A stretch of DNA of 64,000 nt. Origin: Rhodamnia argentea. Its lineage: Eukaryota; Streptophyta; Magnoliopsida; Myrtales; Myrtaceae. The stretch covers positions 24,868,934 to 24,932,933 of the forward strand of contig NC_063151.1 in assembly GCF_020921035.1 (NCBI RefSeq), in the 5' to 3' direction. The position numbers were made by a program, and so were the translations under genes. The notes under the pieces are model-generated. The model saw only the letters and a list, made by a program, of their open reading frames with translations, searched no databases and had not been told where the DNA came from. This document shows positions 14,851-58,986 of the stretch, piece after piece (within the stretch, counting starts at the first letter, position 1; the number at the start of each line of letters is the position of its first letter).

Positions 14851-15720
14851 TTAAACAGCCATTGTTTTAGCAGAAGTATTCCTAAGACCGAACCCAACCC
14901 CAAGCTTCAAATCCAGCTCCACGTTGCTACTACTGTTGCCACCTCCAACGCCGACGCCCCGACCGTTTGTTGAACTGAACAGGTGCTCCAGCGATGTCAC
15001 GACCGAGCATTTCCTCCCACCATCCAAGCCCTCCTTCCTCTTCTTCCCGCCCCCACCACCGCTCCTATTCCTGCCGCTGTTGTCGTTTCCCGGAGCCGGC
15101 CGCGACAGGAACGGCACCACCGGGGGTATCTGGAAGTTGGTTCGCGCCTTGGCACCCCTCAGCCTCCTCGCCGCCGCGTCGTACGCTCTCGCCGCCTCCT
15201 CCGCCGTGTCGAACGTCCCCAGCCAGTGCCTGCACCTCCCTACCCTGTCCCTTATCTCCGCCGACCACCTCCCCCACGGCCTCTTCCTCACCCCCCTGTA
15301 GCTCGTCTGACCGGCCGACGAACCCCCCGCAACGCCCCGGGCTTTACCGTCGACTTCGTCATCCCCTTGCACTTCTCTAGCCTTAGGAACCGAAAGCCGC
15401 GAGACGCCGCGGGCCGCCGCGCCGCCGGCCAAGGCATCCTCCTTCTTCTTGTTCTTTCCGAAGAGCACGTCCTCGCCCACTACGGCCGCAATCCCGTCGA
15501 GGACGGCGGGTTCCGCCTCCGTCTCCGTTTTGCCCCGCGTTTCGGGTCTCGGAAACTCGAGAGGCGGAGGCAGATTGCATGGTGGGAAGTGGAAGCGATG
15601 ATGATCGAATAAAGGGACGTAAAGAAACGGGGGTTCGGCCGGGAAGCGAAACGTTTCGTAAGCGGAGCATGGCTCGCAAGTGGTGTCAAACGGAACGGGG
15701 TTCAGTGTTTGGCCGTCCAT
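14851..15720 (-). CDS. AP2/ERF transcription factor, group VIII-b-like
   Basis: Intronless, 289 aa. One AP2/ERF domain at residues 141-197: [34 protein letters not shown] and GAKARTNF. The Ala and Asp of the [12 protein letters not shown] segment mark ERF rather than DREB specificity (GCC-box binding expected). The N-terminus is Pro/Phe-rich, the linker after the domain is Gly-rich with a basic KKRK cluster (possible NLS), and the C-terminus has VELDLKLG (267-274), an LxLxL/DLxL EAR-type repression motif. The domain most resembles group VIII-b (ERF084-ERF090, which includes LEP, PUCHI and DRN/DRNL regulators of meristem and organ initiation). If the neighbourhood is collinear with Arabidopsis, ERF084 (At1g80580) is the best candidate, but the subgroup is not proved by the sequence alone. 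A TATA box lies 59 bp upstream of the ATG. Confidence 0.92.
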
Positions 15721-15778
15721 AGCTCAACTGCTAAAGACAAATGCTTAGACTAGAGAGAAGTCGGAGGTAAACGGTGTG

Positions 15779-18900: not shown

Positions 18901-20390
18901 GCTTATGAATATTCTCTCCCACTTCAGTTGCTTTTTATTCATGAGAATGGTGAAAAATCATGGATTTGCGAGGCTTAGGAGATGGAAATTTTGGGTCAAT
19001 GGCAAGGTAGAATGGACTCCATTGGCAGATCTTCTACCCTAGCATTTCTACCTTTCTCTCCATCCACGATGATTTCGCACAACCCACCCTCTCCCTCCCC
19101 TAGTACTTTTGTCAAATGTTCAAATGAGTTTCCACACTTTTTTATTTTTTTTACTGATCGAGTCCTAAAGGGGCTACCACGAAAGACTCAAAAGAATGTC
19201 TTTCGCTTATGTTCATTGATTTGGTTAAAATATGTACAAAGACGGGGTTGGGTAGGTGGTTTGTCAATGCTAACTACGTTGTGATTGATTCTATTTCTAC
19301 CACGGAGGCTGACGTGCAGGGTCATGATTAGGACCATCTTACTCGTTGATCTTATTGCTTTTCTAGAATTAAACCTACTGAGGGCCTTGGGGTTGGAAAC
19401 TCATGAATTCATATTTGCTTAATCATTTAGAGTCGCTTTTGCAATTTTATCGCGAATCGAAATCGTCAAGTGAGCAATATTGTAGCGAGTGAAGTACTTT
19501 GTAACCGATTGTAATCACGCCTAGACGAGGCAAGTTGAACCACAATAACCAACCTTTGTACTCGATATCGACTAGTGGATTAGATGTAACCCTCGGACGA
19601 GTTCGAAGAGTGGAGCAAGCAGATTTATGTATGTATTTTTTTTTTGTTGGTCTAGGTCAAACAACTATAAATCGATCGAGTGACTCTCTATCTCTACACT
19701 CTTTATTTTTCTCAGCTTAAATGTGCACTATAAATGATTCATGTTCTATTTGCGTGTATTATCTTGATATGATGGTGCACATAGCGAAATTTTTGGACCG
19801 ACAACAGCCTTCCTGTCAAGCCAAAGAAAACCAAGATTCCTAGCATATTTGCATTTTGTTGTTAATCTGGATGTCGATTTCCAAGTTGTTTTCAACACAT
19901 GTACACCATTAAGAAGTTGCTCACCACATTTCTAGTAAAATGCCTAAGTCAAGCCTTTGCAAATACGTCATGATTAAAACCTCTTTTTGTTTGCTGAAGT
20001 TCTATTTTTGCCGTGCTCCATGGCTGGAACATCAATTTCCTGAGGCATTCACGTTGGTTAGCTTCTCCAAACTTTGGTCTATACAATCCTTCTATGTTGC
20101 GATTGGGAATGTTAAAAAGTTTGGTGGCCAACAGTGGTGATTAGTGATGGTTTAAATTGATAGTTTGGGCTTAATCTGCTTTGATGGGGTGATAGGTTGG
20201 GCTCAATCTGTTTAGATAGAGGGCTTTTGGCTATTATTTACTTTGAGTTGGGTACGTTCACGGTCCAACCAATAAGAGTCCGCAATCAGCCCATATCCGG
20301 GCCAGGCCTCAAGGCCCGGCCCTAGTCCCTATTTCCAAAAAATTATAAACCCGAGAACAAGAAATGGGAAACTTGGTTTTAAAAAGCAGG
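15950..20390. other. Gene-poor intergenic region
   Basis: About 4.4 kb between the ERF promoter and the first unit of the repeat family. Open frames up to 135 codons (18188-18595, 18433-18762, 17348-17635) overlap on opposite strands and show no domain, signal peptide or exon logic. Parts (17150-17650, 18200-18700) are less AT-rich than the rest and might be decayed coding DNA, but I could not recognise a protein in them. Confidence 0.5.
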
Positions 20391-20394
20391 TATT

Positions 20395-22900
20395 TATGAA
20401 ATCGTCACTTCATCAGAACTTATATAGTTAGGAGCGTTCTTTCCTTGCTTTCTAGTATAATTCATGTCTTTACTCGATTGATTGTTGATTAGCATGTTCA
20501 TTTTAGATTAGATTATCATGTTCGAGTATATATGATCCCAAGAAGTTTTGCCTTTACCCGCTTTAACAATGAAGGATCTCGAGCAGAGCCATCGGCTGTG
20601 GTAGAGTAGCTCCCATTTGGAATACCGAGTGAAATAAGATCTAACGACATTAATTGTAAAAATAATCAGCACGTTAGGCGAATGAAATTAAAGATCGGTC
20701 CTTCGATTATTGCAAAAGTACTGAATTTTTATGGTCAATGTCATTTGCCCAATTTAGTTGGTATATTTTTTTTGGGTGCCATTTCTTGAAAAATTCTAAC
20801 ATGAGGAAGAACTTTTTTAAGTTCTAGACATTTCTAGAAAATTCCGACACGACTCTACATAGTAACATCTATATGAATCGAAAGGTTTCGTGCGTTTGAG
20901 AAATGTCATCAAGATTTTTTCGATATCGGGAAAAAGAAATAGTCTCGAGCTTTGTTCTTCTGTAAAGGGGAAACATAAATAATATGCCTCATCTTTTACA
21001 CGTGGAGGGCCGGCATAAAACGAGAAGTCGTTTCGTCGGTGCGTATGTTATTCAAGGAAATAAGGAAATAAGAATTTTGGCCATCATATTTGATTTCTCC
21101 AGTTTCCTATTTTAAATAAAGCAACGATCTCTTCTTTATCGCTCGGTCGGTCGGTTCGCCTCTATGAAAATTGAAAATCTTCGCTTTCTCCCCTGCTGAA
21201 CTCCTCGCTTAATTCTCTTTCCGCGTCTCTTCTTCTTCTTCGTCCGTCGTTCTCGATCATCGTCAGAAACCCTAGCAAAGTAAGAAAAGCCAGCGTCAAG
21301 CTCGCGAAGATTCAGAAGTGGGTCAACTACACCTTCGAGTTTCTCCCCGCCGTCTTCACGGATGCCAAGTACTTTGCCTCCCACGTCAACGACGTCGTTG
21401 AGGGTATCATCGAGGGCCTGACTTGCGTCTTCTGACGCCTCCATGACCATCGAGCTCCTCAAGGAGGTCTTGGAGAAGGTCTTCCAGAAACTTCAGTTGG
21501 AGCTCTCTTTTTTTGTGTGTTTGTATGTCTGTGACAATATAATTTATCGTGACCAAATTTCCATATAAACAGTTATATACGGCCAAGACCAAGGCCAAGA
21601 TGAAGAGAAAAGTCAATGCTGGACGGACAAAACACAATGCTGTGAGAACCGATTTAGAGATGGCCAAGATGAAGGGTAAGGTCGGTGCTGGACGGAGCAA
21701 ACACAATGCTGTCAAAACCCATTTAGAGAGCAAGGCCAAGATGAAGGCTGCGAAAACTGATTTAGAGACCAAGATCAATGCGACGGGAATGCGTAAGGTG
21801 AAGAAAAAGGAGACGACCGTGAGGGCGGCGAAGATCTTCAAGAACCAAGCCGCAAAGAATGAAGCATGGCCTCAAAAGCGTAACAATGGAAAAGACCAGC
21901 AAAACGGACGAAATACCCAGCAGCATTACTTGAAGGGTTGTCTTATAGAACCGAAGCTGCCTTCCAAGGGACAGAAGAAGACTGTCAGTTTCAACTTGCC
22001 TGAGGATGATTTTGGGAGCAGATGAGGATGATTTTGGGAGCAGGTGAGGATGATTTTGATTAGGAGAAGAGGATTAAGCATAGGCCTTTTAAGTCTTCAC
22101 TTCATTGAAAAGAGTTGCCTTTCCTTCATTGTTGGTCCGAGAGGCAAACTGCTCAGCTCCATAAAGGCGAACAGCGGACGCTAAAACACTGTGGCAGCAG
22201 CCGGATGCCGCTCCTGACACAGTTCTATTCGATACGATAATCAGCAAAATATATCTCGGCCTGCTCATTTGAATGAATCGCATTTTTGAAGGGAATACTC
22301 GTGTTTTCTTTCTCAGGCTAAATTACCGACATAACATCAATATTTTACTGAGTAGTAGTTACTCATCTTTCAGACAGTCGTGCAAGAGGACATGTTTTTC
22401 TTTAGGTTAGTTAGCAAATGTTTGTACTTCCATCTTTTGAGCACAATCTTCCATTAGGGTGGGTTCTTATTGCTGCTCCTATCTAAAGATTATTAGACGC
22501 TTGTTTGGGTCGAACTCTCATCTATCAATTCGGTAATGCCTTCAGAGATTGAATAGACCCATCAATCACCAAACCGTATTTTACATGCATATTGGCCCAA
22601 AAAAAGAAGACTATATTATGATCGATTCTTCGTAATATATGGTTTGATGCTCATGAGATGCACTTCTTTGGAAAATGTTGGGATTTTTTTTTTTTTTTCA
22701 GTGTTGGCGGTGTCGGGTCATTCTAAAATCAATTCGATTAGGAAAATGAACTGAAGTAGGCAAATAATTGCACCATAAAGATGCAATTCTCCATTGATAG
22801 TGCCCGTTCCACTTCAGTTTTATGCAAATCAATTCCAATAATCCACCGCATTTGTAATACAACCATCAAGCTTGCCCTAGTTATTTAAGTTTTGAAAAGG
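20395..22900 (+). repeat. Duplicated block A carrying copy 1 of the lysine-rich gene family
   Basis: From ATGAAATCGTCACTTCATC (20396) through AACATGAGGAAGAACTT, the gene copy, the 3' flank GCGAACAGCGGACGCTAAAA and GACTATATTATGATCGATTC (22600), this block matches block B (24885-29420) in order and orientation. Block B carries extra insertions at about 25100-27010 and 28820-29042. The limits are approximate and set by loss of visible similarity. Confidence 0.8.
21290..22025 (+). pseudogene. Copy 1 of the lysine-rich repeat family; 5' exon broken, 3' exon open
   Basis: The 5' part (21290-21500) aligns with exon 1 of copy 2 (CGTCTTCACG, AACGACGTCGT, GAGGGTATCATCGAGGGCC, CTCCAAG-type ending) but lacks the ATG region, has internal deletions and a TGA at 21433, and the TATA box seen in copies 2 and 3 is altered (CTATGAAA at 21162). 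The 3' exon, after an acceptor at 21571-21572, stays open from 21573 to the TGA at 22023-22025: LYTAKTKAK, two full 24-residue repeats from 21600, a truncated third repeat, then a basic Gln/Asn-rich tail ending KKTVSFNLPEDD. An open 3' exon behind a broken 5' exon could mean recent inactivation or use of an internal ATG (21600). Function unknown. Confidence 0.7.
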
Positions 22901-23640
22901 AAAATGTTCCCTCCGAAGTTATGAAAGGAATTATCCTATGATTATGTCGTGACGCTGACTAAATCCTATCGTAAAGTAGGCATTTTGCTTTGCCTTAGAC
23001 TCTATTGAAACAAAGCAAAGAAGGAGACGGAATGGAGAAAGGAAAAGGGGCGAGGGCAGTCTTGCTTGGCATGAAGGCTGCTGGTTTGAAACTTTGAAAT
23101 ATCAGGAAAATCATCATCTGTATAGGGCTTGAACAAAAATTGAATTTTGAAGAAATAAGTGTACAGGAAGTCCTAAAATTTGTTACCAAGGTGCAATTGA
23201 GTCCTAAGACTTTTAAAATGTGCAATCAAACGGGAAGTCCTAAAACCTGTCACGAAAGTACAATTGAGTTCTAAAAATTTCAAAAAATGCAATTAAGCAG
23301 TAAAACTTATTATAAAAGTACAATCGAGCACTAAAACTTTCAAAAAGTGCAAGTCAATCCTAGAACTTGACGAAATGAATGTGACGAGGAGTGGTAGAGC
23401 GTGGGCACCCTCGGCTTTTATATCTCATCACGATGAGGAGTGACCGGGAGTGCTTGTGAATTTAAATAAAGAAGGCATCCTCCTTTACAGTTTACAGTGC
23501 ATGTAAATTTTAGTCATTCCAAGTGTTTACCAGTGTACAAATCACGTTTCACCCATTATCTCGGCATCAATGATTTGACGCTATCTTTTGTACATGCAAA
23601 ACTCGCAAAACAGTATCAACAAGATTAAAGGAAACCACCT
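22026..23640. other. Spacer between copies 1 and 2 of the repeat family
   Basis: Holds the 3' flank of copy 1 (matched in block B up to about 22900) and then a divergent AT-rich stretch with the minisatellite-like segment at 23165-23375. No gene recognised. Confidence 0.6.
23165..23375. repeat. Minisatellite-like array, about 65-bp units
   Basis: Three imperfect units of the form AGTCCTAAAA-TTGT..AAAGTACAATTGAGT-CTAAAA..TTCAAAAAxTGCAAT. The words resemble the TIR arms at 25.7, 48.8 and 55.1 kb (GCAATTGTGCCAATTxAGTCCTAAA), so it may be an isolated, amplified arm of such an element. A short single unit recurs at about 29535-29580 in block B. Confidence 0.6.
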
Positions 23641-23757
23641 AATATTTAAGGGAATAAGATTTTGGCCCGCATATTTGATTTCTCCAGCTTCCTATTTCAG
23701 ATAAAACAATGATCTCTTCTTTCGTTTTTCTCTCTAATTGCCTGTTCTGTTCGCCCC

Positions 23758-23764
23758 TATAAAT
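23758..23764 (+). promoter_or_regulatory. TATA box of lysine-rich gene copy 2
   Basis: TATAAAT within CCCCTATAAATCTCCAC, 136 bp upstream of the ATG. The same box is kept in copy 3 (27566-27572) and lost in copy 1. The surrounding 100 bp, including TTTTGGCC.GCATATTTGATTTCTCC, is conserved among the copies, so it is the likely core promoter. Confidence 0.65.
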
Positions 23765-23893
23765 CTCCACTGTCTCCACCACCCCTCCCCCCACATTGAA
23801 CTCCTCGCTTAAACTCTCTTTCCCCGTCTCTTCTTCTTCGCTTTTTTTCATCATCATCAGAAACCCTAGAAAAGAGAGAAAAGCCTCATCACA

Positions 23894-24801
23894 ATGTGGT
23901 GCCGCCTTGCAGGTCCGTTCGAGTACCTCGCCATAATAGGAGGATGGATCCTCGCCATAACAGGAGGATGGATCAAGGACGTCAAGGTTGTGAAGGTGGC
24001 GGAGTTATCGCCGTTCCAGAAGTGCGTCAAGTTCGACGTTTCCCCAGTGGACTACACGTTCGAGTCTCTCCCCTTCTTCCGCCCCGCCGTCTTCACCATC
24101 GGCCCCCAAGTCACCAACCACCAGAGCCTCGTCCGCTATGCCAATTTCTTTGCCTTCCGAGTTGAGCGCTCGGTCCACATCAACGACCTCGTCAAGGGTA
24201 TCATCGAGGGCCAGACCCACATCTTGGACGCCTCCGTGACCTTCCAGCATATCTTGGAGGGGGTCTCGGTCGAGCATATCTTGGAGGAGGTCTTTGGGAA
24301 GTTCTTCTCGAAACTCCAGTTGGAGCTCAACCAGTTTGGGCTCGTGATCTTCAAGGCTCACCTGGTCGGATATTTTTGCCCTAATTGAGCTCATCCTGAT
24401 ACATGAATTTCATAATCTTGTGACGTGGATCATGTGTTTTTTTTTTTTGTTTGCCTGTTACAATATATTTTATCGTGACCAGGTTACTTTATTAACAGGA
24501 ATATGCAGGCAAGACCAAGATGAAGGGTAAAGTCGGTGCTGGACAGACCAAACACAATGCTGTGAAAATCAATTTTGAGACTAATGGCAAGATGAACGTT
24601 AAAGTCGGTGTTGGACAGACTAAACACGATGCTGTGAAAACCGATTTTGAGACCAAGGCCAAGATGATGGTTAAAGTCGGTGTTGGACAGACCAAACACA
24701 ATGCTGTGAAAACCGATTTAGTAAACAAGATCATGGCGACCGGAATCCGTAAGGTGGAGATAAAGGAGACGACTACGAGGGTGGTGAAGATCTTTAGGTG
24801 A
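23894..24801 (+). CDS. Copy 2 of the lysine-rich repeat family, unknown function, two exons
   Basis: Predicted exons 23894-24364 and 24499-24801, joined in phase by GTCGGA / TTATTAACAG: 257 aa. Exon 1 alone is open to 24388 (164 aa), so the splice is an inference, supported by the same phase-0 junction in copy 3. Exon 1 begins MWCRLAGPFEYLAIIGGW, with a 21-bp internal duplication giving two GGWI boxes, followed by a segment with SPVDYTFESLPFF, VNHQSLVRYANFF-like and GIIEGQTHILDASV blocks and a helical Leu/Phe-rich end. Exon 2 encodes three 24-residue, 72-bp repeats (KxKVGxGQTKHxAVK), then KIMATGIRKVEIKET and a stop that coincides with AGGTGAGG, so a further exon is possible. Strongly basic; no known domain found. 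The ATG follows the leader CATCACA shared with copy 3. Probably a lineage-specific family. Confidence 0.6.
24520..24735 (+). repeat. Three 72-bp coding repeats in copy 2
   Basis: Three head-to-tail units starting ATGAAGGGTAAAGTCGGTG, ATGAACGTTAAAGTCGGTG and ATGATGGTTAAAGTCGGTG. Each encodes 24 residues and keeps the reading frame. Copies 1 (from 21600) and 3 (from 27885) have two full units and one truncated unit. Confidence 0.9.
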
Positions 24802-25694
24802 GGATGATTTGGATGATGAAGAGAGGATAAAAGCGTGAGGTCTTAAGAAATTGGAAAATTGTTTAGAAAAATAGGTTTTTATGAAATCGTCACTTCATTG
24901 GAACTTATATAGTTAGGGACGTTCTTTTCTTGTTTTCTAGTATAATTCATATCTTTACTCAACCGTGTTGATTTAGCATGATCATTGTAGATTAGATTAT
25001 GGATTTTTAGTTCAGTTTAGAATCGTGTTCGAGCATGTGATCTCAAGAAATTTTGTCTTACCGGCACTAACAACGAAAGATCTCGAGCAAAGCCATTGAC
25101 TGTTCAATGCTCCAAGCGTAGGGCTAAGTTGTGCTTCAACATCACCATTGTAGTCATGGTCAAGGTTGCCCAAAGCTGCGGCGGATCAACATAAATAGCT
25201 TACTATGTTAGATGAATTTTCCTTTTTCCATAGTAATTAATCGCGTCCTTTCGATTTAGTGTCAATGTGTGGCTAGCAGTTAGTTAACCCGCGCCACATG
25301 AAAAGATTAGGAAATTACCATTGTACCATGACTTTTGCAAACTAGGTGCCGTGTGGATTATACACCAAAAATTCTTTGCCATCAATTCAATCACATATAT
25401 CCAAATATAAAAGTATTGTCATTGATTCTGCAAAGATCGAATATTCATCTCGAACAGACAAATATAGCAAAAGAAACCATCGCGCAAAGCGCACTTTACC
25501 CTTTCCTTACTTAAACTAAAGGATTGAACAAGTGTTACAAATGCATTCATCCACCGCAAATTTTTCTTCCTTCTTTTTTGAACGAAAGGCAGTTGTAATG
25601 CCTTTAAGAATCATACTCGGAGGTGCTGGTACGCATTTCTTATCTTCCAAGTTGAAATACAGTCCTAACATTTCAATTGTGCAAGTTTTCTTTT

Positions 25695-26690
25695 TTCGGG
25701 TCGAAATTTATATCAGTTGAGTCTTAAGCCTTTTGACAATTTGTCAATTTAGTTATAAACCTTTCAATTGTGCCAATTTAGTCATCTCGGCTAATTTTGA
25801 CGAGAAATCTCTGACGTGGCGGTCTAGTCAACGCCGACCCTTCCCACGCACCACGCCGGTTATGATGTGGACAACCATTTGTAATAATTTTTGTAATTTT
25901 TTGAACTTTCTTTTCACCTTCTTCCTCTAGTCGGTCACCGGGTCTCAACGATGGTTGACGAGGCTTGACATTGCCGTCGCCGGGCAAGGTGACTTTGACA
26001 AGGTCGAGCCTCACCTAACCATCCTCGCCAACCTGGTGATGGCGAACCTTGGTCGCGATGGTGAGTTTGAGCCTCTCCGGCGACCGATGAGGGCAAGCTT
26101 TGCTCGAGGTTTGGCGATTGGCTAGAGGGAGAAAGGGAAAGAAAAACAAAGAAAAAAAAATAAAATATTTCAAAAAAATTATTAAAAGAACTTTAAAATT
26201 GTCTACGTCTGCGCCGACCGTCACGTAGGATGGCCGATACTGACTAGATCGCTACGTTAGTAATTTCTGGTTAAATTGAAAAATTACAGAAAAAATTCAA
26301 ATTATCAAAAGATTTAGGACTAAGGTTGCGTTCGTTTTGCGAAAAATGAAATATTCGAAAAATATTTTTCAAAAAATGATTGCTTCTATGGTTTAGAAAA
26401 ATTAGTCAATGAAAAATATTTTCATCATCGATAGCAATCCATGCCTAACTATTTTCATATGCGATGAAAAAATGTTTTATTCATTTATTTTTGTAAGCCA
26501 TATAAGCGATTATTTTTCAAAAAATGTTTTACAAATCACTTATTTTTTCGCGAAACGAACGCATTCTAATTTGATAAATTATCAAAAGGTTTAAGACTAA
26601 ATCGATACAATTGAAATGTTTACAATTAAATTGGCAACTTGCCAAAAGTTTTAAGACTAAATTAATACGAGTACAACATGTTTAGAAATT
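25695..26690. mobile_element. Long-TIR foldback element, non-autonomous, about 1 kb
   Basis: The left arm (about 25695-25830) reads TGAGTCTTAAGCCTTTTGAC, CAATTTAGTTATAAACCTTT, CAATTGTGCCAATTTAGTC, and the right arm (about 26570-26690) is its reverse complement with moderate divergence. Inner inverted pieces flank a GC-richer core (25810-26250) with CGACGTGGC-type words but no transposase frame. It lies in the segment of block B that is absent from block A. It belongs to the same class as the elements at 48.8 and 55.1 kb; no clean target duplication could be read. Confidence 0.65.
26324..26565. mobile_element. MITE nested in the right arm of the 25.7-26.7 kb foldback
   Basis: Ends GGTTGCGTTCGTTTTGCG and CGCGAAACGAACGCATT form imperfect inverted termini around GCGTTCGTTT. 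The interior is AT-rich and self-complementary (AAAATATTTTTC / GAAAAATATTTTC). CTAA flanks both ends, so a 3-4 bp target duplication (TAA) is possible, which would suggest a PIF/Harbinger-Tourist type. It interrupts the host arm between 'taggacta' and 'ctaatttg'. Confidence 0.6.
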
Positions 26691-27565
26691 TTTTGGCAAT
26701 TTTCTCACTACAATTATTTCCCCAAATTCCTATAGAAAGGTCGTCCTGCCACTATTATTTTCCATGTGGGGAAATAATTGCCGTTCACAAAGTGTAGGAC
26801 ATCCATTTTACGAGAAGATAGTCTTGACATGTTTTTGGGTGAATTCTATGGACTAGACTTAAATTTGGATAACCGAAGGCAACAATCTTTTCTTTGCTCC
26901 TTCCTTTTCTTGGGGTCTAATGCATTCTAATTGTAGTTCGACTAAATTTTTTGGTGAAATTCTGATCTTGCTAGCAATATGGCTTATTGAAAATTGTTTA
27001 CATATCTATCTGTGTTTTGCCGCAATACTGAATGAGATAAGATCTAAAGACTCAATGATAAAATAATAGGCACATTAGGCAAATGAAATTAAAGATCAGT
27101 CGCTCGATTGCGATAACGCTGGATTTTCATGATCAATGTCATTTGCCCAGTTTCAGTTTCTTTGATGTATTTTTCTTTTGGGTGCCTTTCCTTGAAAAAT
27201 TGTAACATGAGGAAGAACCTTTTAAATTTTAGACATTGCTAGAAAATTTCGAAATGACTCTACATAGTAACAATTGTTCGAATCGAAAGGTTTCAAGCAT
27301 TTGAAATCGAGTTCTAAAGTTTTGGATCATTTAGAAATATAATCCCGCTTTTTCGTTATTAGGAAAAAGAGATAGTCTCGAGCTTTGTCCTTCTAAGGAG
27401 GGGAAACATAAATAGTATACCTCATCTTTTACATGTCGAGCACCGGCATAAACTATCAAATGCAGTCATATAAATTAGTTTTAATAAATGAGAAGTTGTT
27501 TGTAGGTGCGCATTTTACTAAGGAAATAATATTTTGGCCTTTATATTTGATTTCTCCGGCTTCCC

Positions 27566-27572
27566 TATAAAT
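27566..27572 (+). promoter_or_regulatory. TATA box of lysine-rich gene copy 3
   Basis: TATAAAT in CCCTATAAATCTTCACTC, 104 bp upstream of the ATG at 27670; conserved with copy 2. Confidence 0.6.
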
Positions 27573-27669
27573 CTTCACTCTCTTTCCCCGTCCCTTCTTC
27601 TTCTCCGGCGCTGTCGTCGTTCTCGATCATCATCAGAAACCCTAGAGAAGAGAGAAAAGCCTCATCACA

Positions 27670-28325
27670 ATGTGGCGTGTCGCAGGCCCGTCTGAGTACC
27701 TCGCCGTAACAGGAGGATCCATCGAGGACTTCAAGCTCGCGAAGGCGGCGTGGATATGGCCGGCGGTCGGACTTCTTTTGCCCTAATTGAGCGCATCGTG
27801 ATACATGAATTTCATATTCCTATTACAATGTATTATATCGAGACCAAATTTCCTTATTAACAGGTATATGCAGGCAAGACCAAGATGAAGGGTAAAGTCG
27901 GTGCTGGACAGACCAAACACAATGCTGTGAAAACCGATTTAGAGACCAAGGCCAAGATGAAGGGTAAAGTCGGTGCTGGAAGGAGTAAACACGATGCTGT
28001 CAAAACCGATTTAGAGACCAAGGCCAAGATGAAGGCTGCGAAAACCGATTTAGAGACCGAGATTACAGCGAGGGGAACCCGTAAGGCGGAGATAAAGGAG
28101 ATGGCGGCCACAAGGGCGGCGAAGGTCTTCAAGAACCAAGCCACAGAGAATGAAGCATGCCCTCAAAAGGGTAACAATGGAAAAGACCAGCAAAAGGGAG
28201 GAAATACCCGGCAGCAGCACATGAAGGGTTGTCTCAAAGATCCGAGGAAGCGGCCTTCCAAGGGACAGAAGAAGACTGTCAGGTTCAACTTGCCTGAGGA
28301 TGATCTTGGGAGCAGGTTAGGATGA
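27670..28325 (+). CDS. Copy 3 of the lysine-rich repeat family, unknown function, two exons
   Basis: Predicted exons 27670-27765 and 27864-28325, joined in phase 0 (GTCGGA / TTATTAACAG): 185 aa. Exon 1 starts MWRVAGPSEYLAVTGGS and has lost the large central part present in copy 2 by an in-frame deletion that leaves the conserved donor. Exon 2 has two complete 24-residue repeats (KGKVGAGQTKHNAVKTDLET, then KGKVGAGRSKHDAVK), a truncated third (MKAAKTDLET), then a basic tail rich in Lys/Gln/Asn and a C-terminus KKTVRFNLPEDDLGSR. KTVRF fits the PP1-docking pattern [RK]-x-[VI]-x-[FW] and the residue pattern is kept in copy 1, which is suggestive only. Without splicing, exon 1 would end after 38 codons at TAA 27784. 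No known family recognised. Confidence 0.6.
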
Positions 28326-28819
28326 TTTTGATGAGGAGAAGAGGATAAGCATAGGGCCTAAAGTCTTCACTTCTTTGAAAAAGAAGTTGCCTTTTCTTCA
28401 TTGTAGGTGCAGGAGGCAAACTGGCGAGCTCCATAAGAACGAGAGGGGCCGAGGGGCAAAAGGCGAACAGCGGACGCTAAAACACTATGGCAACAGCCGG
28501 ATGCCGCTTCTAACAGGCCTGCAAAACGTATTCCGGCCTGTTCATTTGACAGCGGCACTTCCCCTGTTTGGATGAATCGCATTTTGATCGGAATACTTGT
28601 GTTTCTTTCTCAGGCTATAACATCCATATTTTACTGGGTAGTAGTTACTCATCTTTCAGACAGTTGTGCAAGAAAACATGTTTTAAGTTAGGTTAGTTTT
28701 GCGAATGTTTGTAGTTCATCTTTTGGGCACAATCTTCCACTAGGGTGGGTTCTTATTGCTGCTCCTCTGTGAAGATCATTAGATGCTTGTTTGAGTTCAA
28801 TTCTGATCTATCAATTCAG

Positions 28820-29042
28820 CTGTTAAAGATATTATGATATTTACTTGATTATGTATACTATTCAGGATCATGCATATTATCTTCTTTGATATTACATATC
28901 CTTGATTGACTAGATTTGGTATCATATTTATCTTATTACCTTAAATAATTATGTAATAAAGCTAGGCTCCTTGTACTCTTTTCTATTCATATCGACATAT
29001 ACAGAAATTACTCAATTATTGTTCGTCCGTGTTATTCTTAAG
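28820..29042. mobile_element. LTR-like insertion (solo LTR candidate), 223 bp
   Basis: Block A reads CTATCAATTCGGTAATGCC (22525-22543) without interruption. In block B the same site is split by 223 bp that begin CTGTTAAAGATATTATGA and end TCCGTGTTATTCTTAAG, flanked by TTCAG (28815-28819) and TTCGG (29043-29047), a 5-bp duplication with one change. The near-terminal TGTTA, an internal ATAAAG-type signal and the size fit a small Ty1/copia-type solo LTR, but the 3' end lacks a clear CA. Confidence 0.6.
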
Positions 29043-29658
29043 TTCGGTAATGCCTTTTGAGATTGAATAGAACTATCAATCACCAAACCGTATTTTACAT
29101 GCATATTGCCCCAAAAAAGAAGACTATATTATGATCGATTCTTCACAATTGATGGTCTGATGCTCGTGAGATGCACTACTTTGGTAATAAGTTAGAGTTT
29201 TTTTTTTTTCTTTTTTGATGTTGGCCGCATTGGGCCATTCTGAAATCAATTCAATAAGGAAAATGAACCGAAGGAGGCAAATAATTGCACCATAAAAATG
29301 CAATTTTTTCTCCATTGATAGTGCCCGTTAGCAACAATGTCTAATGTATGCAATGTGCCTCTTACTCCACCGCATTTGTAATACAACCATCAAACTTTAC
29401 CCTAGTTAATTACATTTTCGAAAGGGAAAAACGTTTATGTTCCACTCCGGAATTTGAAAACGAAGGGAATTATCCTCACTTTGAAATATCAGAAAAATGG
29501 GCTCGAACAAGAAGAGAATCTGGAAACGCATAAGTCCACGAAAAGTCCTAAAACTTGTCAAATGAAGTGCCACTTGAGTCTATATATGAGAGTCCAAATA
29601 TAAGAATGCTCCATACAAAGATAGGATAAAGCCACCAAAAAATTTCCCGTCCATCGTC

Positions 29659-29903
29659 CAATTGACTCGATTATTTTGCCCAAAAAAAAACTCGCGACCC
29701 AATTTTTGTGAAATAAGATTTGATTTTCGAAATAGAGTTTACTGCAATTTTATTTGTTTCTATTTATTTTGATCCAAACGTAGCCTCATAGTTATTTGAT
29801 TTTATTGTAATTACATTTTTTTGTCACTATTAAAATGATCAAATCTCATTTTACAAAAGACCAGGTCGCGAACTTTCCGTTGATAAAATAATCGAGTCAA
29901 TTG
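29659..29903. mobile_element. TIR foldback element, about 245 bp
   Basis: CAATTGACTCGATTATTTTG at 29659 is matched in reverse complement by AAAATAATCGAGTCAATTG ending at 29903. Inside, CTCGCGACC/GGTCGCGA and AAATAAGATTTGATTTT/CAAATCTCATTTTAC extend the fold. No target duplication was read with confidence. Confidence 0.65.
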
Positions 29904-30690: not shown

Positions 30691-30800
30691 AGGGGCTGGG
30701 CTGGGCTTAGTCCAATTGCTCGGTCACTTGGCCCATTATCGAAGTTCGAAAAGGCTGTAACACATTCAGCCTCCGTCGTCTTCTTCTTCGTTATTCGCTA

Positions 30801-31082
30801 ATGAAAGCCTTGCTTTCACTGCAATTCCAGCAATGGAAAGAACGATCCGAACGCTTTCCACCTCACCCTCTCTCCTCCCTCGCGTCAAGCTCCTCCTTTC
30901 GCGCCGCTTCTCCCTCTCGTCCTCTCCGCAGCCCACGCCGGACCCCCCAGACTTGTCGCCCGCCTCCGTCTGCGGCGCCCTCTCCGGCTACGCCAATGAC
31001 TGGAGGAAAGCCCTCGACTTCTTCAACTGGGCCGAGCAGCAGTGCCGCTTCCGGCACACCACCGATACCTACAACCGCATGA
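30801..31082 (+). promoter_or_regulatory. Upstream ATG/uORF overlapping the PPR start
   Basis: An ATG at 30801 in another frame opens 93 codons that run past the PPR start at 30833. Its context (CTAATGA) is weaker than that of the PPR ATG (GCAATGG), so leaky scanning could reach the main start. Whether 30801 is inside the mRNA is unknown. Confidence 0.35.
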
Positions 31083-32158
31083 TCGACATTTTGGGTAAGG
31101 TCTTCGAGTTCGACCTCTCTTGGAGCTTGATTGACCGAATGCGGGACGACCCGCTCTCGTTCCCGGACCACGTCACGTTCCGGATCATGTTCAAGCGGTA
31201 CGTGAGTGCCCATCTGGTCGATGAAGCATCCAGGACGTACGATAGGCTCGATGAGTTCGGTCTGAAGGACGAGACCGGTTATTACAATTTCGTAGACGCG
31301 TTGTGCGAGTACAAGCATGTGATGGAAGCTCACGAGCTCTGTTTCGGCAAGGACAAGAAGGCGGAGTTGGGCTTCGATGTCGATGACACAAAGATCTGTA
31401 ACATGATTCTTCGCGGGTGGTTCAAGATGGGGTGGTGGAGTAAGTGCGGGGAATTCTGGGAAGAGATGGATAAGAAGGGCATTAAGAAGGACTTGCACTC
31501 GTACTCGATTTACATGGACATCGAGTGCAAGAGAAGGAAGCCGTGGAAGGCGGTAAAGCTGTACAAGGAGATGAAGAGGAAGGGGATTAAGCTTGATGTC
31601 GTGGCATATAACACCGTTGTTCGCGCCGTCGGGCTCTCGGAAGGCGTGGACTTCGCAATTCGTTTGTGTAGGGAGATGAGAGAATTGGGTTGTGAGCCCA
31701 ATGTGGTGACAAACAACACCATCATCAAGCTCTTGTGCGACAATGGCAGGGTCCGGGATGCGCATAAACTGCTCGACGAAATGCGCAAGGGCGGTTGTAA
31801 ACCAAATGTGGTTACTTATAACTGCCTGTTTGGTTCGTTGGAGAAGCCTAGAGAGATACTGAGATTATTTTATAGGATGATTGGGACCGGAGTCGACCCT
31901 AGGATGGACACGTATGTGATGCTCATGAGGAAGTTTGGGAGGTGGGGATTTCTCAGGCCTGTCTTGATGTTATGGAATAAGATGGAAGAACTAGGAGCTA
32001 GTCCTGATGAATCTGCGTACAATGCCTTGATCGATGCTTTGGTGGACAAAGGCATGATAGATATGGCTCGAAGGTACGACGAGGAGATGCTTGCCAAAGG
32101 TCTTTCCCCCAAGCCTAGGGTAGAGCTGGCGCCAAAATCAGAGGAAGGTTCTCGATAG
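30833..32158 (+). CDS. P-class pentatricopeptide repeat protein, probably mitochondrial (At1g80550-like)
   Basis: Intronless, 441 aa. An Arg/Ser-rich, acid-poor N-terminus (RTLSTSPSLLPRVKLLLSRR) fits an organelle presequence. From about residue 78 the protein is built of 35-residue PPR motifs, clearest in the second half: YSIYMDIECKRRKPWKAVKL, VVAYNTVVRAVG, VVTNNTIIKLLCDNGRVRDA, VVTYNCLFGSLEKP, ESAYNALIDALVDKGMID. No E, E+ or DYW extension, so P class: RNA binding for stabilisation, splicing or translation rather than editing. Segments such as ALDFFNWAEQ, TTDTYNRMIDILGK and LILRGW-like blocks match what I recall of At1g80550. The ATG at 30833 gives the best presequence and context; an out-of-frame ATG lies 32 bp upstream. 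Convergent with IPMDH, whose stop is 1.6 kb downstream. Confidence 0.93.
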   Translation: MERTIRTLSTSPSLLPRVKLLLSRRFSLSSSPQPTPDPPDLSPASVCGALSGYANDWRKALDFFNWAEQQCRFRHTTDTYNRMIDILGKVFEFDLSWSLIDRMRDDPLSFPDHVTFRIMFKRYVSAHLVDEASRTYDRLDEFGLKDETGYYNFVDALCEYKHVMEAHELCFGKDKKAELGFDVDDTKICNMILRGWFKMGWWSKCGEFWEEMDKKGIKKDLHSYSIYMDIECKRRKPWKAVKLYKEMKRKGIKLDVVAYNTVVRAVGLSEGVDFAIRLCREMRELGCEPNVVTNNTIIKLLCDNGRVRDAHKLLDEMRKGGCKPNVVTYNCLFGSLEKPREILRLFYRMIGTGVDPRMDTYVMLMRKFGRWGFLRPVLMLWNKMEELGASPDESAYNALIDALVDKGMIDMARRYDEEMLAKGLSPKPRVELAPKSEEGSR

Positions 32159-45691: not shown

Positions 45692-45815
45692 GAAATGAAT
45701 TGCAACCTTGAGAAACGCACTTCTCCACATAAAAGCATCTATTAAGAGAACTCGTTCACTGTACTAGACTCTCCCCAGAAAAGTTTCTTTGAACGGATTA
45801 AGCAGCTAAGCCAAC

Positions 45816-47507
45816 ATGGCTTCCTTTGTCCAAACCGACTCCTCGATGCCGAAAGTGGGCGAGATCTTTGACGAGAACCGGTGGGTGATCCAAATCCGCC
45901 GGGCGCTCGAGGAAGAGCTCGAAGACGAAACCGAGGTGCCGGTCTCCATTTTCAGTGTCCCGAAAGTACTAAAGTCTAGCGACCCGGATTTGTACACCCC
46001 GCAACAAGTGGCGATCGGTCCATACTACCATTGGTGCCCGGAGATGTACGAGATGGAGAGCTACAAGCTCGCGGCGGCGAAAAGATTTCAGAAGCAACTC
46101 CAAAGGATCGAGTTCAAGAATTTGGTGGAGGAACTGGTAAAGCTTGAGTCGAGGGTCCGAGCCTGCTATCACAAGTACCTGGACTTCAATGGCGAGACGC
46201 TGGCATGGATGATGGCCATCGACGCGTCGTTCTTGCTCGAGTTCCTCCAAGTCTACGCGATCAAAGAAGGTAAGATGCTCTCCAGGGTCTCGTCGAGGAT
46301 GTCGCATTTGGTCGATCATGCAGGAAGGAAGTCTGCACACAATGCCATCCTTAGGGACATAGTCATGCTAGAAAATCAAATCCCCCTTTTCATATTGAGG
46401 AAGATGTTGGAATTCCAATTCGCGTCCCTCGACGAAGCCGACAACATGTTGCTTGCGCTGCTAATGGGGTTTTACAAGGAAGTCTCACTTTTCAAACTGA
46501 TGGAGTCATTGCCCAAGATACAAGTTTCAGCCTGTGCCCACTTGCTAGACTTCTTGTATGACACCATGGTACCCAAGGTGGAGGAACAACCCGAGATCGT
46601 CGAGGATGAAGGTAACAGCGAGGACAAGAAAGAAAAGGGAATATCGCCTTTGGCCTCGTCTAGCAGCGGCTCGAAGTACATCAAGCAACTTTGCGATATA
46701 ATCTGGAGTTCGCTCTTCAAGTTGAGCAAGGGCACCATTGAAATTGTCAAGAGGCTGATTCTTGCAAGCCCAGTGAAGGCACTATTGAAATTGCCATTGA
46801 CTATTCTCTCTAAACTCCCATTTTTCTCAGTCTTGGCACAGCCTATTGAGTCCTTAGTGTCATCCCAAGTAAAAGAAGAGGGCCAGTCAGAAAATGAAAA
46901 CGGCAATCCTCACAAGCCACCTTCGGTTGAGGAGATCGCAATCCCCTCAGTCTCTGATCTATCGAAGGTAGGAGTCCGTTTCCTGGCCACCAAGGGCAAC
47001 CTCGCTAGCATCAGTTTCGACGCCAAGATTGCTACGCTTTACTTGCCTGCCATAAGTCTGGACGTGCACTCGGAGGCGTTCATGAGGAACCTAGTCGCTT
47101 ACGAGGCGTGCAACGCGTCAGGCCCATTGGTTTTCACGCGCTACACCGAACTCATGAACGGCATCATAGACTCGGATGAGGACGTGAAGCTGTTGAGAGA
47201 GAGAGGGGTCATTTCGAACCGGCTGAAGAGCGACGGGGAGGCCGCGAAGCTGTGGAACGGGATGAGCAAGTCGATCCGGTTGACAAAAGTGCCGTTCCTG
47301 GACAAGGCGATCGAGGACGTGAACGAGTACTACAACGGGAGATGGAAGGTCAAGCTCGGCAAGTTCTTGAAGCAGTACGTGCTCGGCTCATGGCAATTCC
47401 TGGCGGTGCTGGCTGGGATCGGGCTCTTGCTGCTATTGACATTACATGCCTTCTGCTCGGTCTATAGCTGTTCTCGCGCATTTCATATCAAAACCCCAAG
47501 CATATGA
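45816..47507 (+). CDS. DUF247 (UPF0481-type) membrane-anchored protein, copy 1
   Basis: Intronless, 563 aa. The DUF247 signature runs from about residue 40 to 540: VSIFSVPKVL, YTPQQVAIGPY, an ARK-rich helix, DASFLLEFLQVYA, RDIVMLENQIPLFILRKML, FLATKG and AYEACNASGPLVFTRYTELM, ending in the typical C-terminal membrane anchor (528-550, FLAVLAGIGLLLLLTLHAFC). A Ser-rich acidic/Lys linker at about 255-290 is variable between copies. The family's biochemistry is unknown; DUF247 genes sit at the S and Z self-incompatibility loci of ryegrass and elsewhere are multi-copy and fast-evolving. The ATG after AGCCAAC is shared by both copies. Full length and undamaged. Confidence 0.95.
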   Translation: MASFVQTDSSMPKVGEIFDENRWVIQIRRALEEELEDETEVPVSIFSVPKVLKSSDPDLYTPQQVAIGPYYHWCPEMYEMESYKLAAAKRFQKQLQRIEFKNLVEELVKLESRVRACYHKYLDFNGETLAWMMAIDASFLLEFLQVYAIKEGKMLSRVSSRMSHLVDHAGRKSAHNAILRDIVMLENQIPLFILRKMLEFQFASLDEADNMLLALLMGFYKEVSLFKLMESLPKIQVSACAHLLDFLYDTMVPKVEEQPEIVEDEGNSEDKKEKGISPLASSSSGSKYIKQLCDIIWSSLFKLSKGTIEIVKRLILASPVKALLKLPLTILSKLPFFSVLAQPIESLVSSQVKEEGQSENENGNPHKPPSVEEIAIPSVSDLSKVGVRFLATKGNLASISFDAKIATLYLPAISLDVHSEAFMRNLVAYEACNASGPLVFTRYTELMNGIIDSDEDVKLLRERGVISNRLKSDGEAAKLWNGMSKSIRLTKVPFLDKAIEDVNEYYNGRWKVKLGKFLKQYVLGSWQFLAVLAGIGLLLLLTLHAFCSVYSCSRAFHIKTPSI

Positions 47508-52774: not shown

Positions 52775-52843
52775 ACAACTCATTCACTGCACTACACTCC
52801 CCCCAGAAAAGTTCCTTTGAACAGATTAAGCAGCTGAGCCAAC

Positions 52844-54535
52844 ATGTCTTCCTCCGTCCAAACCCAATCGTCGATGCCGAAATTGGGTGAGATCTTCGAT
52901 GAGGTCCAGTGGGTGATCCAAATCCGCCGGACGCTCGAGGAAGAGCTCGAAGATGAAACCGAGGTCCCAGTCTCCATTTTCAGCGTTCCGAAAGTGCTAA
53001 TGTCTAGCGACCCAGATTTGTACACCCCGCAACAAGTGGCCATCGGTCCATACCACCATTGGCGCCCAGAGATGTACGAGATGGAGAGGTACAAGCTTGC
53101 AGCGGCGAAAAGATCCCAGAAGCAATTCCAGAGGATCAAGTTCCAGAATTTGGTGGAGCAACTGGTAAAGCTAGAGCCGAGGGTCCGAGCCTGCTACCAC
53201 AAGTACCTGGACGTCAACGGTGAGACACTGGCGTGGATGATGGCCATCGACGCATCATTCTTGCTCGAGTTCCTCCAAGTCTATGCTATCAAAGAAGGTA
53301 AGATGCTCTCGAGGGTCTCGACGAGGATGTCGCATTTGGTCGATTATGCAGGGAGGAAGTCTGCACACAATGCAATCCTTAGGGATATAATCATGCTAGA
53401 GAATCAAATCCCCTTTTTCATAGTGAGGAAGATGCTGGAATTCCAATTCGCGTCCCTCGACGAAGCCAATGACATGTTGCTCGCGATGCTAATGGGGTTT
53501 TACAAGGAAGTCTCACCTTTCAAACTGATGGAGACATTGCCCAAGATACAAGTCTCAGTTTGCGCCCACTTGCTAGACTTCTTGTATGACACCATAGTTC
53601 CCAAAGTGGAGGAACAACCCGAGATCTTCGAGGAGGAAGGTAACGGCGAGGACAAGAAAGAGAAGGGAAAATCGCCTTCGGCCTCGTCTAGCAGCGGCAC
53701 AAATTATATCAAGCAACTTTGGGATGTGATTTGGAATTTCCTCTCCAAGTTGAACAAGGGCCCAATTCAAATGCTCAAGAGGCTGCTTCTTTCAAACCCA
53801 GTGAAGGTACTATTTAAACTGCCATGGACTATTCTATCTAAACTCCCATTTTTCTCAGTCTTGGCACGGCCTCTTGAGTCCTTATTCTCCTCCCAAGAAA
53901 AAGAAGATGGCAAGTCAGAAAATGAAAACGGCAACCCTCACAAGCCACCTTCAGTTGAGGAGATCGCAATCCCCTCGGTCTCTGACCTATCCGATGTAGG
54001 AGTCCGTTTCGTAGCCACCAATGGTAACCTCTCTTGCATCGGCTTCGACACCAAGACAGCGACACTTACCTTGCCTGCCATAAGTCTGGACGTGAACTCG
54101 GAGGTGTTCATGAGGAACCTAGTCGCTTACGAGTCGTCCAACGCGTCAGGCCCATTGGTTTTCACGCGCTACACCGAGCTCATGAACGGCATTATAGACT
54201 CGGACGAGGACGTGAAGCTGTTGAGAGAGAGAGGAGTCATCTTGAACCGACTGAAGAGCGACGAGGAGGTAGCGAAGCTGTGGAACGGGATGAGCAAGTC
54301 GATCCGGCTGACAAAAGTGCCCTTCCTGGACAAGGCGATCGAGGACGTGAACAAGTACTACAACGGGAGGTGGAAGGTCAAGCTCGGCAAGTTCATGAAG
54401 CAGTACGTATACGGCTCATGGCAATTCCTGGCATTGCTGGCGGCGATTGCGCTCTTGCTGCTCATGACATTGCAAGCCGTATGCTCGGTCTATAGCTGTT
54501 CTCGTATATTTCATATCAAAGCCATAAGCACATGA
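52844..54535 (+). CDS. DUF247 (UPF0481-type) membrane-anchored protein, copy 2
   Basis: Intronless, 563 aa, exactly as long as copy 1 and alignable end to end without gaps. It keeps VSIFSVPKVL, YTPQQVAIGPY, DASFLLEFLQVYA, MLENQIPFFIVRKML, VFTRYTELM and the C-terminal anchor (FLALLAAIALLLLMTLQAVC, about 528-550). Differences cluster in the acidic/Lys-rich linker (about 255-345) and near FVATNGNLSCIGFDTKTAT. No stop or frameshift, unlike the membrane-protein pseudogene of the same block, so this half of the duplication has been retained. The core promoter differs from copy 1. Confidence 0.95.
   Translation: MSSSVQTQSSMPKLGEIFDEVQWVIQIRRTLEEELEDETEVPVSIFSVPKVLMSSDPDLYTPQQVAIGPYHHWRPEMYEMERYKLAAAKRSQKQFQRIKFQNLVEQLVKLEPRVRACYHKYLDVNGETLAWMMAIDASFLLEFLQVYAIKEGKMLSRVSTRMSHLVDYAGRKSAHNAILRDIIMLENQIPFFIVRKMLEFQFASLDEANDMLLAMLMGFYKEVSPFKLMETLPKIQVSVCAHLLDFLYDTIVPKVEEQPEIFEEEGNGEDKKEKGKSPSASSSSGTNYIKQLWDVIWNFLSKLNKGPIQMLKRLLLSNPVKVLFKLPWTILSKLPFFSVLARPLESLFSSQEKEDGKSENENGNPHKPPSVEEIAIPSVSDLSDVGVRFVATNGNLSCIGFDTKTATLTLPAISLDVNSEVFMRNLVAYESSNASGPLVFTRYTELMNGIIDSDEDVKLLRERGVILNRLKSDEEVAKLWNGMSKSIRLTKVPFLDKAIEDVNKYYNGRWKVKLGKFMKQYVYGSWQFLALLAAIALLLLMTLQAVCSVYSCSRIFHIKAIST

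Positions 54536-58914: not shown

Positions 58915-58986
<72 letters not shown>

Follow-up and report, generated by a model that had tools for sequence, protein, structure and literature searches.

The 64-kb window analysed here, C2:24868934-24932933 of the Rhodamnia argentea (Myrtaceae) genome, carries three related copies of a gene-like unit, A, B and C, all on the plus strand as seen by self-blastn. A first-pass annotation had described them as a tandem family, each copy made of two exons around an intron, the 3' one bearing the repeats, a description borne out by self-blastn, Tandem Repeats Finder (TRF) and the open frames; the family itself it had considered unrecognised, with no known domain like it. 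The comparisons presented below point to flotillins as the source of exon 1 and of the repeat units and to a HIPP-type gene as the source of a basic tail on two of the copies.

Self-blastn aligns 21534-22531 of copy A with 27825-28817 of copy C (79.6%) and 24454-24794 of copy B with 27819-28129 of copy C (77%). On the 5' side, a block of copy A (20621..21019) matches the corresponding block of copy C (27024..27452) at 75%, 21061-21291 of copy A matches 23647-23885 of copy B (72%), and 23813-23945 of copy B matches 27577-27718 of copy C (81%). TRF reports 72-bp arrays at 24510-24719 (2.9 copies) and 27875-28035 (2.2 copies) and a 69-bp array at 21585-21747 (2.3 copies). The frame of exon 2 is free of stops in all three copies.

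Copy B consists of a first exon of 157 codons (23894..24364), a GT-AG intron (24365..24498) and a second exon (24499..24801) with three full 24-residue units and no HIPP-derived tail. Its first exon encodes a divergent flotillin SPFH region with internal duplications, including a 24-bp direct duplication at 23926-23974; about seven residues inside the SPFH region (around QAMSAEK of the ordinary protein) are absent, and the exon also carries one or more insertions. The first-pass model of this copy, 23894-24364+24499-24801, is letter for letter the NCBI protein P0003, annotated as 'flotillin-like protein 3'. Copy C corresponds to an uncharacterised NCBI model, P0001 (LOC125313682), which covers 98% of the C exon-2 protein at 100% identity. 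Exon 1 of copy C (27670..27765) is a flotillin N-terminus of 32 codons, 87% identical to residues 1-31 of the Syzygium oleosum flotillin-like protein P0005; exon 2 (27864..28315) holds two full units, one partial unit and then the HIPP-derived tail; and a GT-AG intron (28316-28406) leads to a third exon (28407..28575), which mostly aligns with the Psidium guajava protein P0002 (J3R85_000677). Exons 2 and 3 reproduce the NCBI model, of which the first-pass annotation had the first two exons right and the third missing. The third-exon sequence (CRRQTGELHKNERG...) is largely retained in the Psidium protein and has a counterpart in copy A at about 22130-22250, where the alignment shows an altered 3' splice site; no match to it came from the flotillin profile or from the HIPP locus.

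In copy A the SPFH exon survives as a broken remnant (21295..21514) that lies in two frames and has lost its start. Tblastn of P0005 and of its S. grande counterpart P0010 places flotillin residues 43-104 in frame 1 at 21322-21417 and residues 102-128 in frame 2 at 21437-21514; a TGA breaks an out-of-frame ATG, and the 5' exon is unusable. Exon 2 of copy A (21573..22025) is open, with two units, a partial unit and the HIPP-derived tail, and is 75% identical to C exon 2 in the genome search. A variable 5' exon had been attributed to all three copies, which holds for B and C and not for A; likewise, the Gln/Asn tail attributed to the 3' exons is found in A and C and is absent from B. Nor does the repeat number change in whole 24-codon units, as had been proposed: there are three full units in B, and two with a partial one in A and in C (an 11-codon gap), and the remaining gaps are of one or two codons. 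The proteins end in ...DDFGSR (A), ...KIFR (B) and ...ALPLFG (the C model).

Flotillin ancestry of exon 1 and the 24-residue unit

Exon 1 of copy B aligns at 46% with residues 1-150 of the ordinary S. oleosum flotillin-like protein 4, P0073 (tblastn, E 1.7e-32), and exon 1 of copy C aligns with its residues 3-32. Both exons resemble the N-terminal SPFH sequence of the plant flotillin-like (SPFH/Band 7) proteins. A hidden Markov model (HMM) was made from 91 plant flotillins, chosen from 124 proteins by setting aside P0001-P0004, five further named proteins of Myrtaceae and any sequence outside the range 440-520 aa. Against this model B exon 1 scores E 7e-43, C exon 1 E 2.5e-9 (HMM positions 1-32) and B exon 2 E 0.00099. 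Seven of the 2088 six-frame open reading frames of the window match it at E <= 1, and all seven lie inside the cluster; the matches cover the first exons of B and C, the second exons of all three copies and what is left of the first exon in A. The complete B model matches 186 proteins at E <= 0.001, best of all the Syzygium flotillin-like P0005 (E 4e-67, 53%) and then other plant flotillins, with Pfam Band_7 present in 118 of the 120 listed. Together with the NCBI name of copy B, these protein and HMM matches overturn the view of the family as unrecognised. The protein search that the first-pass annotation had proposed does reach a known protein, which is however a cellular one, flotillin, and not a transposon protein. 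When solved structures were searched by sequence, with an alignment as well as B exon 1 and C exon 2 as queries, the one match was to a ribosomal protein (E 0.22), which we take as chance. In a tree of exon-1 proteins, used for branch lengths only because 12 of its 21 inner branches are open and two long groups meet, the end branch of copy B measures 1.4-1.7 changes per site, where the median is 0.12. On these homologies, A, B and C are identified as flotillin-derived, incomplete flotillins.

The 24-residue unit, judged by the same kind of likeness, is one flotillin segment, at about residues 178-205, that has been multiplied here. Plant flotillins carry after the SPFH domain, at the start of the barrel, a segment KMKGxxG...GQTxxNAxKxDxET followed by KIxAT, EIK and VKxF, and the homologous segment and these following elements are also present in exon 2 of the cluster, the segment in A, B and C alike. 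In Arabidopsis (P0055) it starts at residue 181. Its motif occurs once in 79 of the 91 ordinary flotillins, was not found in the other 12 and occurs twice in none, whereas in the window copies it is multiplied and has lost four residues. Against the flotillin HMM, exon 2 scores 11.1 (A), 14.4 (B) and 15.3 bits (C), values reached by none of 2000 shuffles of each. Tblastn aligns C exon 2 with residues 178-271 of P0073 (E 1.8e-6); by way of P0005, with composition adjustment off, the E-values are 1e-21 for C (P0005 residues 136-254), 4.5e-21 for B and 1.2e-14 for A. By reading, P0005 and P0010 have the same multiplied unit in four and five copies, respectively, and both share the MWRVAGPSEYLA start with copy C.

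The window copies are without the C-terminal region of flotillin and most of its barrel. P0005 (43.5 bits) and P0010 (by alignment) keep a flotillin C-terminal stretch that the window copies do not, and the C-terminal region gave no match in the cluster on its strand. The tblastn alignments of copy C stop at ordinary residues 271-316, the longest of them running into the tail. The ordinary flotillin gene is uninterrupted at the place of the intron of B and C, and in B ordinary residues of about 151-177 are missing there. By this evidence the copies lack the full helical barrel and the C-terminal oligomerisation region. In human flotillin, SPFH1 binds the membrane, the barrel comprises 186 residues and the C terminus stabilises a cage of 22 subunit pairs (PMC11260169); Arabidopsis flotillins are reported to form hetero-oligomers via the C-terminal domain (PMC6052134). 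The window copies, without these C-terminal parts, should therefore not build such a cage alone.

The HIPP-derived tail

Unlike the units, the basic Gln/Asn tail found in A and C is on its sequence not flotillin: the C tail alone scores -3.7 bits against the flotillin HMM, a value reached by 520 of 2000 shuffles. A genome search with C exon 2, in which the best 14 candidates were scored, found four places, namely A, B, C and a locus on C6 (L004) that is 71% identical over query residues 98-150. At the DNA level, 28162..28337 of copy C matches L004 1667-1478 (blastn, 74%, E 3e-34) and 21871..22066 of copy A matches L004 1667-1453 (72%, E 7e-31), both in the HIPP reading frame; copy B retains at most a 23-nt remnant of the tail at 24798-24820 (blastn, E 1.6e-4). 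L004 encodes an HMA domain split over two exons (E 2.1e-16 when these are joined by eye) with HCEGC present, and ends in CSIM, an HMA-plus-CaaX arrangement that fits the HIPP family as published abstracts describe it. Shared between it and the tails of A and C are about 48-53 linker residues, QKGNNGKDQQxGGN...KGxxKD..PSK..KTVRFNLxEDDxG. The HMA domain and the CaaX end of L004 have no equivalent in the cluster: neither the window exons nor P0001-P0004 match the domain at E <= 1, and no CaaX end occurs in A, B or C. Either L004 or a sister gene would have been the donor.

Among four proteins compared, the tail is present only in the C model P0001 and in the Psidium P0002; the Syzygium P0005 and P0010 are without it, unlike A and C. 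P0002 has the same exon-2 units, the end of the HIPP-derived tail and the third-exon sequence, and lacks 23 residues at the tail start. It also shares with copy A the same out-of-frame ATG and the same KAKM insertion, and is open where A has the TGA. Because the tail occurs in Rhodamnia and Psidium and not in these two Syzygium proteins, the flotillin-HIPP fusion probably dates to Myrteae, the tribe of both genera, as far as these few species indicate. A search for the tail among proteins of about 270-870 aa yielded 32 candidates and no match at E <= 10. In the open-licence literature we found no flotillin-HIPP fusion, no paper on Myrtaceae flotillin-like genes and, among the listed R. argentea genome papers, none about flotillin. 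Copy B had already been annotated as flotillin-like by NCBI and the cluster in part annotated, and the fusion is the one feature for which no earlier report was found in that literature.

Paralogues and surroundings of the cluster

Searched with P0073, the genome gave 24 places, comprising ordinary flotillin copies on C8, broken fragments, copy B and four loci on C2. The ordinary copies are 94% identical to P0073, with one interruption near residue 310 that we read as an intron. They form two similar sets (L005-L010, L012, L013, L015, L022), at 14.85-14.89 and 18.66-18.71 Mb, about 3.8 Mb apart, which could be either a block duplication or a single haplotype assembled twice.

The four C2 paralogues (L017, L018, L019 and L023) lie on the minus strand, 137-248 kb from copy C. 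They match C at the start of exon 1 (27666-27752, 72-80%) and over an exon-2 unit (27850-27950, 73-74%), and their 3' DNA is 75-77% identical to 28642-28698 of C and 79-81% to the counterpart 22356-22412 of A; L023 and L017 also match parts of the 5' block of C, at 27280-27464 and 27399-27464, respectively. Each has a single, less altered unit. That unit reads KAKMKGKVGA-MLCA-GQTKQNSAKIDAETK in L017 and L019 and has two other residues in L018; its four extra residues are in frame in these three, and L023 is frameshifted there. Since these loci share sequence with C, the same family includes a single-unit form. A stop or frameshift interrupts exon 2 in three of the four, that of L018 (a stop) and that of L019 (a frameshift) lying further on, and in L017 a flotillin-like RMLPPLLKTLHEQALG continues behind a stop. 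From its sequence, the single-unit form is also decaying.

Within the window, 20359..20599 (plus strand) is 76% identical to 24845-25103, directly 3' of copy B, and could have belonged, as its 3' end, to a fourth copy since lost. Between B and C, 26327-26563 is a 237-bp palindromic stretch, 73% identical to its own reverse strand and with 20-bp ends that are 95% complementary, which looks like a fold-back or miniature inverted-repeat transposable element (MITE)-type element. The neighbouring genes include an AP2-domain gene (14851-15723, minus), a PPR gene (30761-32158, plus) and a nodulin-like/NFD4 transporter gene (59886-61624, plus), of which the part 61148-61624 was assigned by reading only. 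A DUF247 tandem pair occupies 45810-47507 and 52838-54535 on the plus strand, with open frames of 565 aa each (Pfam E 3e-104 and 2e-109), and two copies of a 79-bp unit (98% matches) stand at 58983-59142, about 0.7 kb upstream of the nodulin-like open frame at 59886.

Constraint, decay and alternative explanations

The ratio of nonsynonymous to synonymous substitution rates (dN/dS) in exon 2, by the NG86 method, is 0.91 for A/C (95% interval 0.53-1.78), 0.91 for B/C (0.44-2.12) and 0.94 for A/B (0.46-2.16). These values are not distinguishable from neutral. In neutral simulations with stops barred the NG86 median is 0.67-0.79, so that 0.91 is if anything above neutral. The ratio depends on method (YN00 gives 1.84 for A/C, 1.24 for B/C and 2.56 for A/B; maximum likelihood 1.16, 1.25 and 1.14, respectively), and for A/C it divides by NG86 into 0.58 for the repeats alone and 2.00 for the tail alone. 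Differences by codon position are flat in A/C (20, 15, 18), and in B/C (6, 17, 14) and A/B (10, 22, 18) the third position is not in excess over the second. Exon 2 has diverged by 12-13% and the non-coding neighbours by 10-20%. The first-pass annotation had held the frame to be selected and had put forward dN/dS among the three 3' exons as a check, naming a neutral ratio as the outcome that would speak against it; the ratios, whose intervals together span 0.44-2.16, are neutral as far as the data reach, and what is left is a weak case for past or weak constraint from the gaps described below. The absence of stops in all three 3' exons, though correctly noted, is weaker evidence than had been thought: in neutral simulations with substitutions alone at the observed level, A, B and C all stay open in about 7%, and a single A/C-sized comparison stays open in 13-17% at 50-60 substitutions.

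Several observations weigh against a picture of flotillin-derived genes in simple decay. All six exon-2 gaps are multiples of three; in non-coding alignments nearby, 7 of 33 are (Fisher 5e-4). This comparison combines nine non-coding stretches with two coding pairs, was hand-counted before the test, and ended the A/C stretch at 22000/28294, excluding a 22-bp duplication at the end of A exon 2; with that duplication counted it becomes 6 of 7 (p 0.0026). Some of these gaps lie in the repeats, where in-frame slippage is mechanical. Against the HIPP-type gene, dN/dS is 0.34 (0.15-0.77) for C and 0.54 (0.21-1.7) for A, figures that include the donor's own branch. Psidium has an open relative, P0002 (63%), with the same tail end and third-exon sequence; L017 is open through its unit, up to the stop before the flotillin C-terminal sequence; and NCBI predicts genes here, perhaps with RNA support. 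As to the ancestry itself, Pfam Band_7 is below cut-off on B exon 1 (E 0.19) and gives no match at E 0.01 on P0003, copy B being the sole exception among the seven proteins of a test alignment, of which six match at E <= 0.01. The best reading of constraint is that it is relaxed, with perhaps some past or weak frame-keeping.

We consider it very probable that the cluster consists of flotillin-like genes that are truncated, evolve fast and are decaying under relaxed constraint, and that it has captured a piece of a HIPP gene; the homologies are shown, and the order of events given here is our reconstruction. An ancestral flotillin copy would have reached this chromosome, C2, the ordinary copies being on C8, and would have lost most of its barrel and C-terminal regions, with tandem and nearby duplication following. 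The segment at about 178-205, minus four residues, may have given rise to the 24-residue units by slippage or unequal crossing-over. In the Rhodamnia/Psidium lineage a HIPP-type linker piece of about 180 bp would then have been added after the units in the same frame, as the origin of the basic Gln/Asn tail, which copy B probably lost at a later stage; in copy A, the SPFH exon broke. The present function of the cluster is most likely little or nothing. If expressed, B would yield a fragment of SPFH and C the short N-terminal piece of a flotillin, in both cases with a lysine-rich stretch and without the cage-closing parts.

Because the copies are without the C-terminal parts and C has only 32 codons of the SPFH exon, we favour such relaxed decay, put a young chimera next and regard transposon capture or a decoy role as less likely still. 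That C and its Psidium relative form a young functional chimera, a working small membrane-associated or plasmodesmal adaptor under weak selection, is unlikely. The frame-keeping gaps, the open Psidium relative with its tail end and matching third exon, the GT-AG introns and the NCBI models speak for it, but dN/dS among the copies is not below neutral (1.66 for the HIPP part of A and C, with a wide interval of 0.47-4.86), copy A is broken and copy B has no tail. It is distinctly unlikely that a young Myrteae fusion of a flotillin membrane-binding start, a lysine-rich barrel segment and a HIPP linker has become a new small adaptor, sited at plasmodesmata or the plasma membrane and competing with both of its parent families.

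Carriage of the gene fragments by a transposon, through capture of the Pack-MULE or Helitron type and not ordinary local duplication, would suit the joining of pieces of two unrelated genes and the spread of copies within 260 kb on both strands. It is very doubtful, however, as no long terminal inverted repeats flank the units in 20000-29800 (arms of at least 18 nt), where the three long-range inverted pairs are AT-rich, 19-26 nt long and 73-89% complementary, and as the 5' blocks, introns and 3' DNA were duplicated along with the gene. Still more doubtful are dominant-negative or decoy flotillins, truncated SPFH proteins that would join flotillin assemblies or microdomains, capping or poisoning them; the 157-codon SPFH-like exon retained by B and the membrane-binding and oligomer-stabilising roles of SPFH1 and the C terminus (PMC11260169) agree with such a role, but B exon 1 carries insertions, lacks SPFH residues and sits on a very long branch, and the brevity of the SPFH part of C counts here as well. 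The idea of a new protein family on a new repeat domain had in its favour that Pfam and NCBIfam scans of the window's single exons found no family above cut-off; it is refuted as to origin by the flotillin and HIPP matches, and we give it next to no credence.

Under the reading of relaxed decay, an apparent new domain is replaced by traceable gene decay and recombination, in which the passage of one flotillin segment from single to multiplied can be traced by way of near-intermediates in this genome, a scrap of an unrelated gene being joined to it in frame. Such cases show how automatic annotation yields 'uncharacterised' lineage-specific proteins; and if one of the copies were functional, it would provide a natural test of a flotillin start without the cage.

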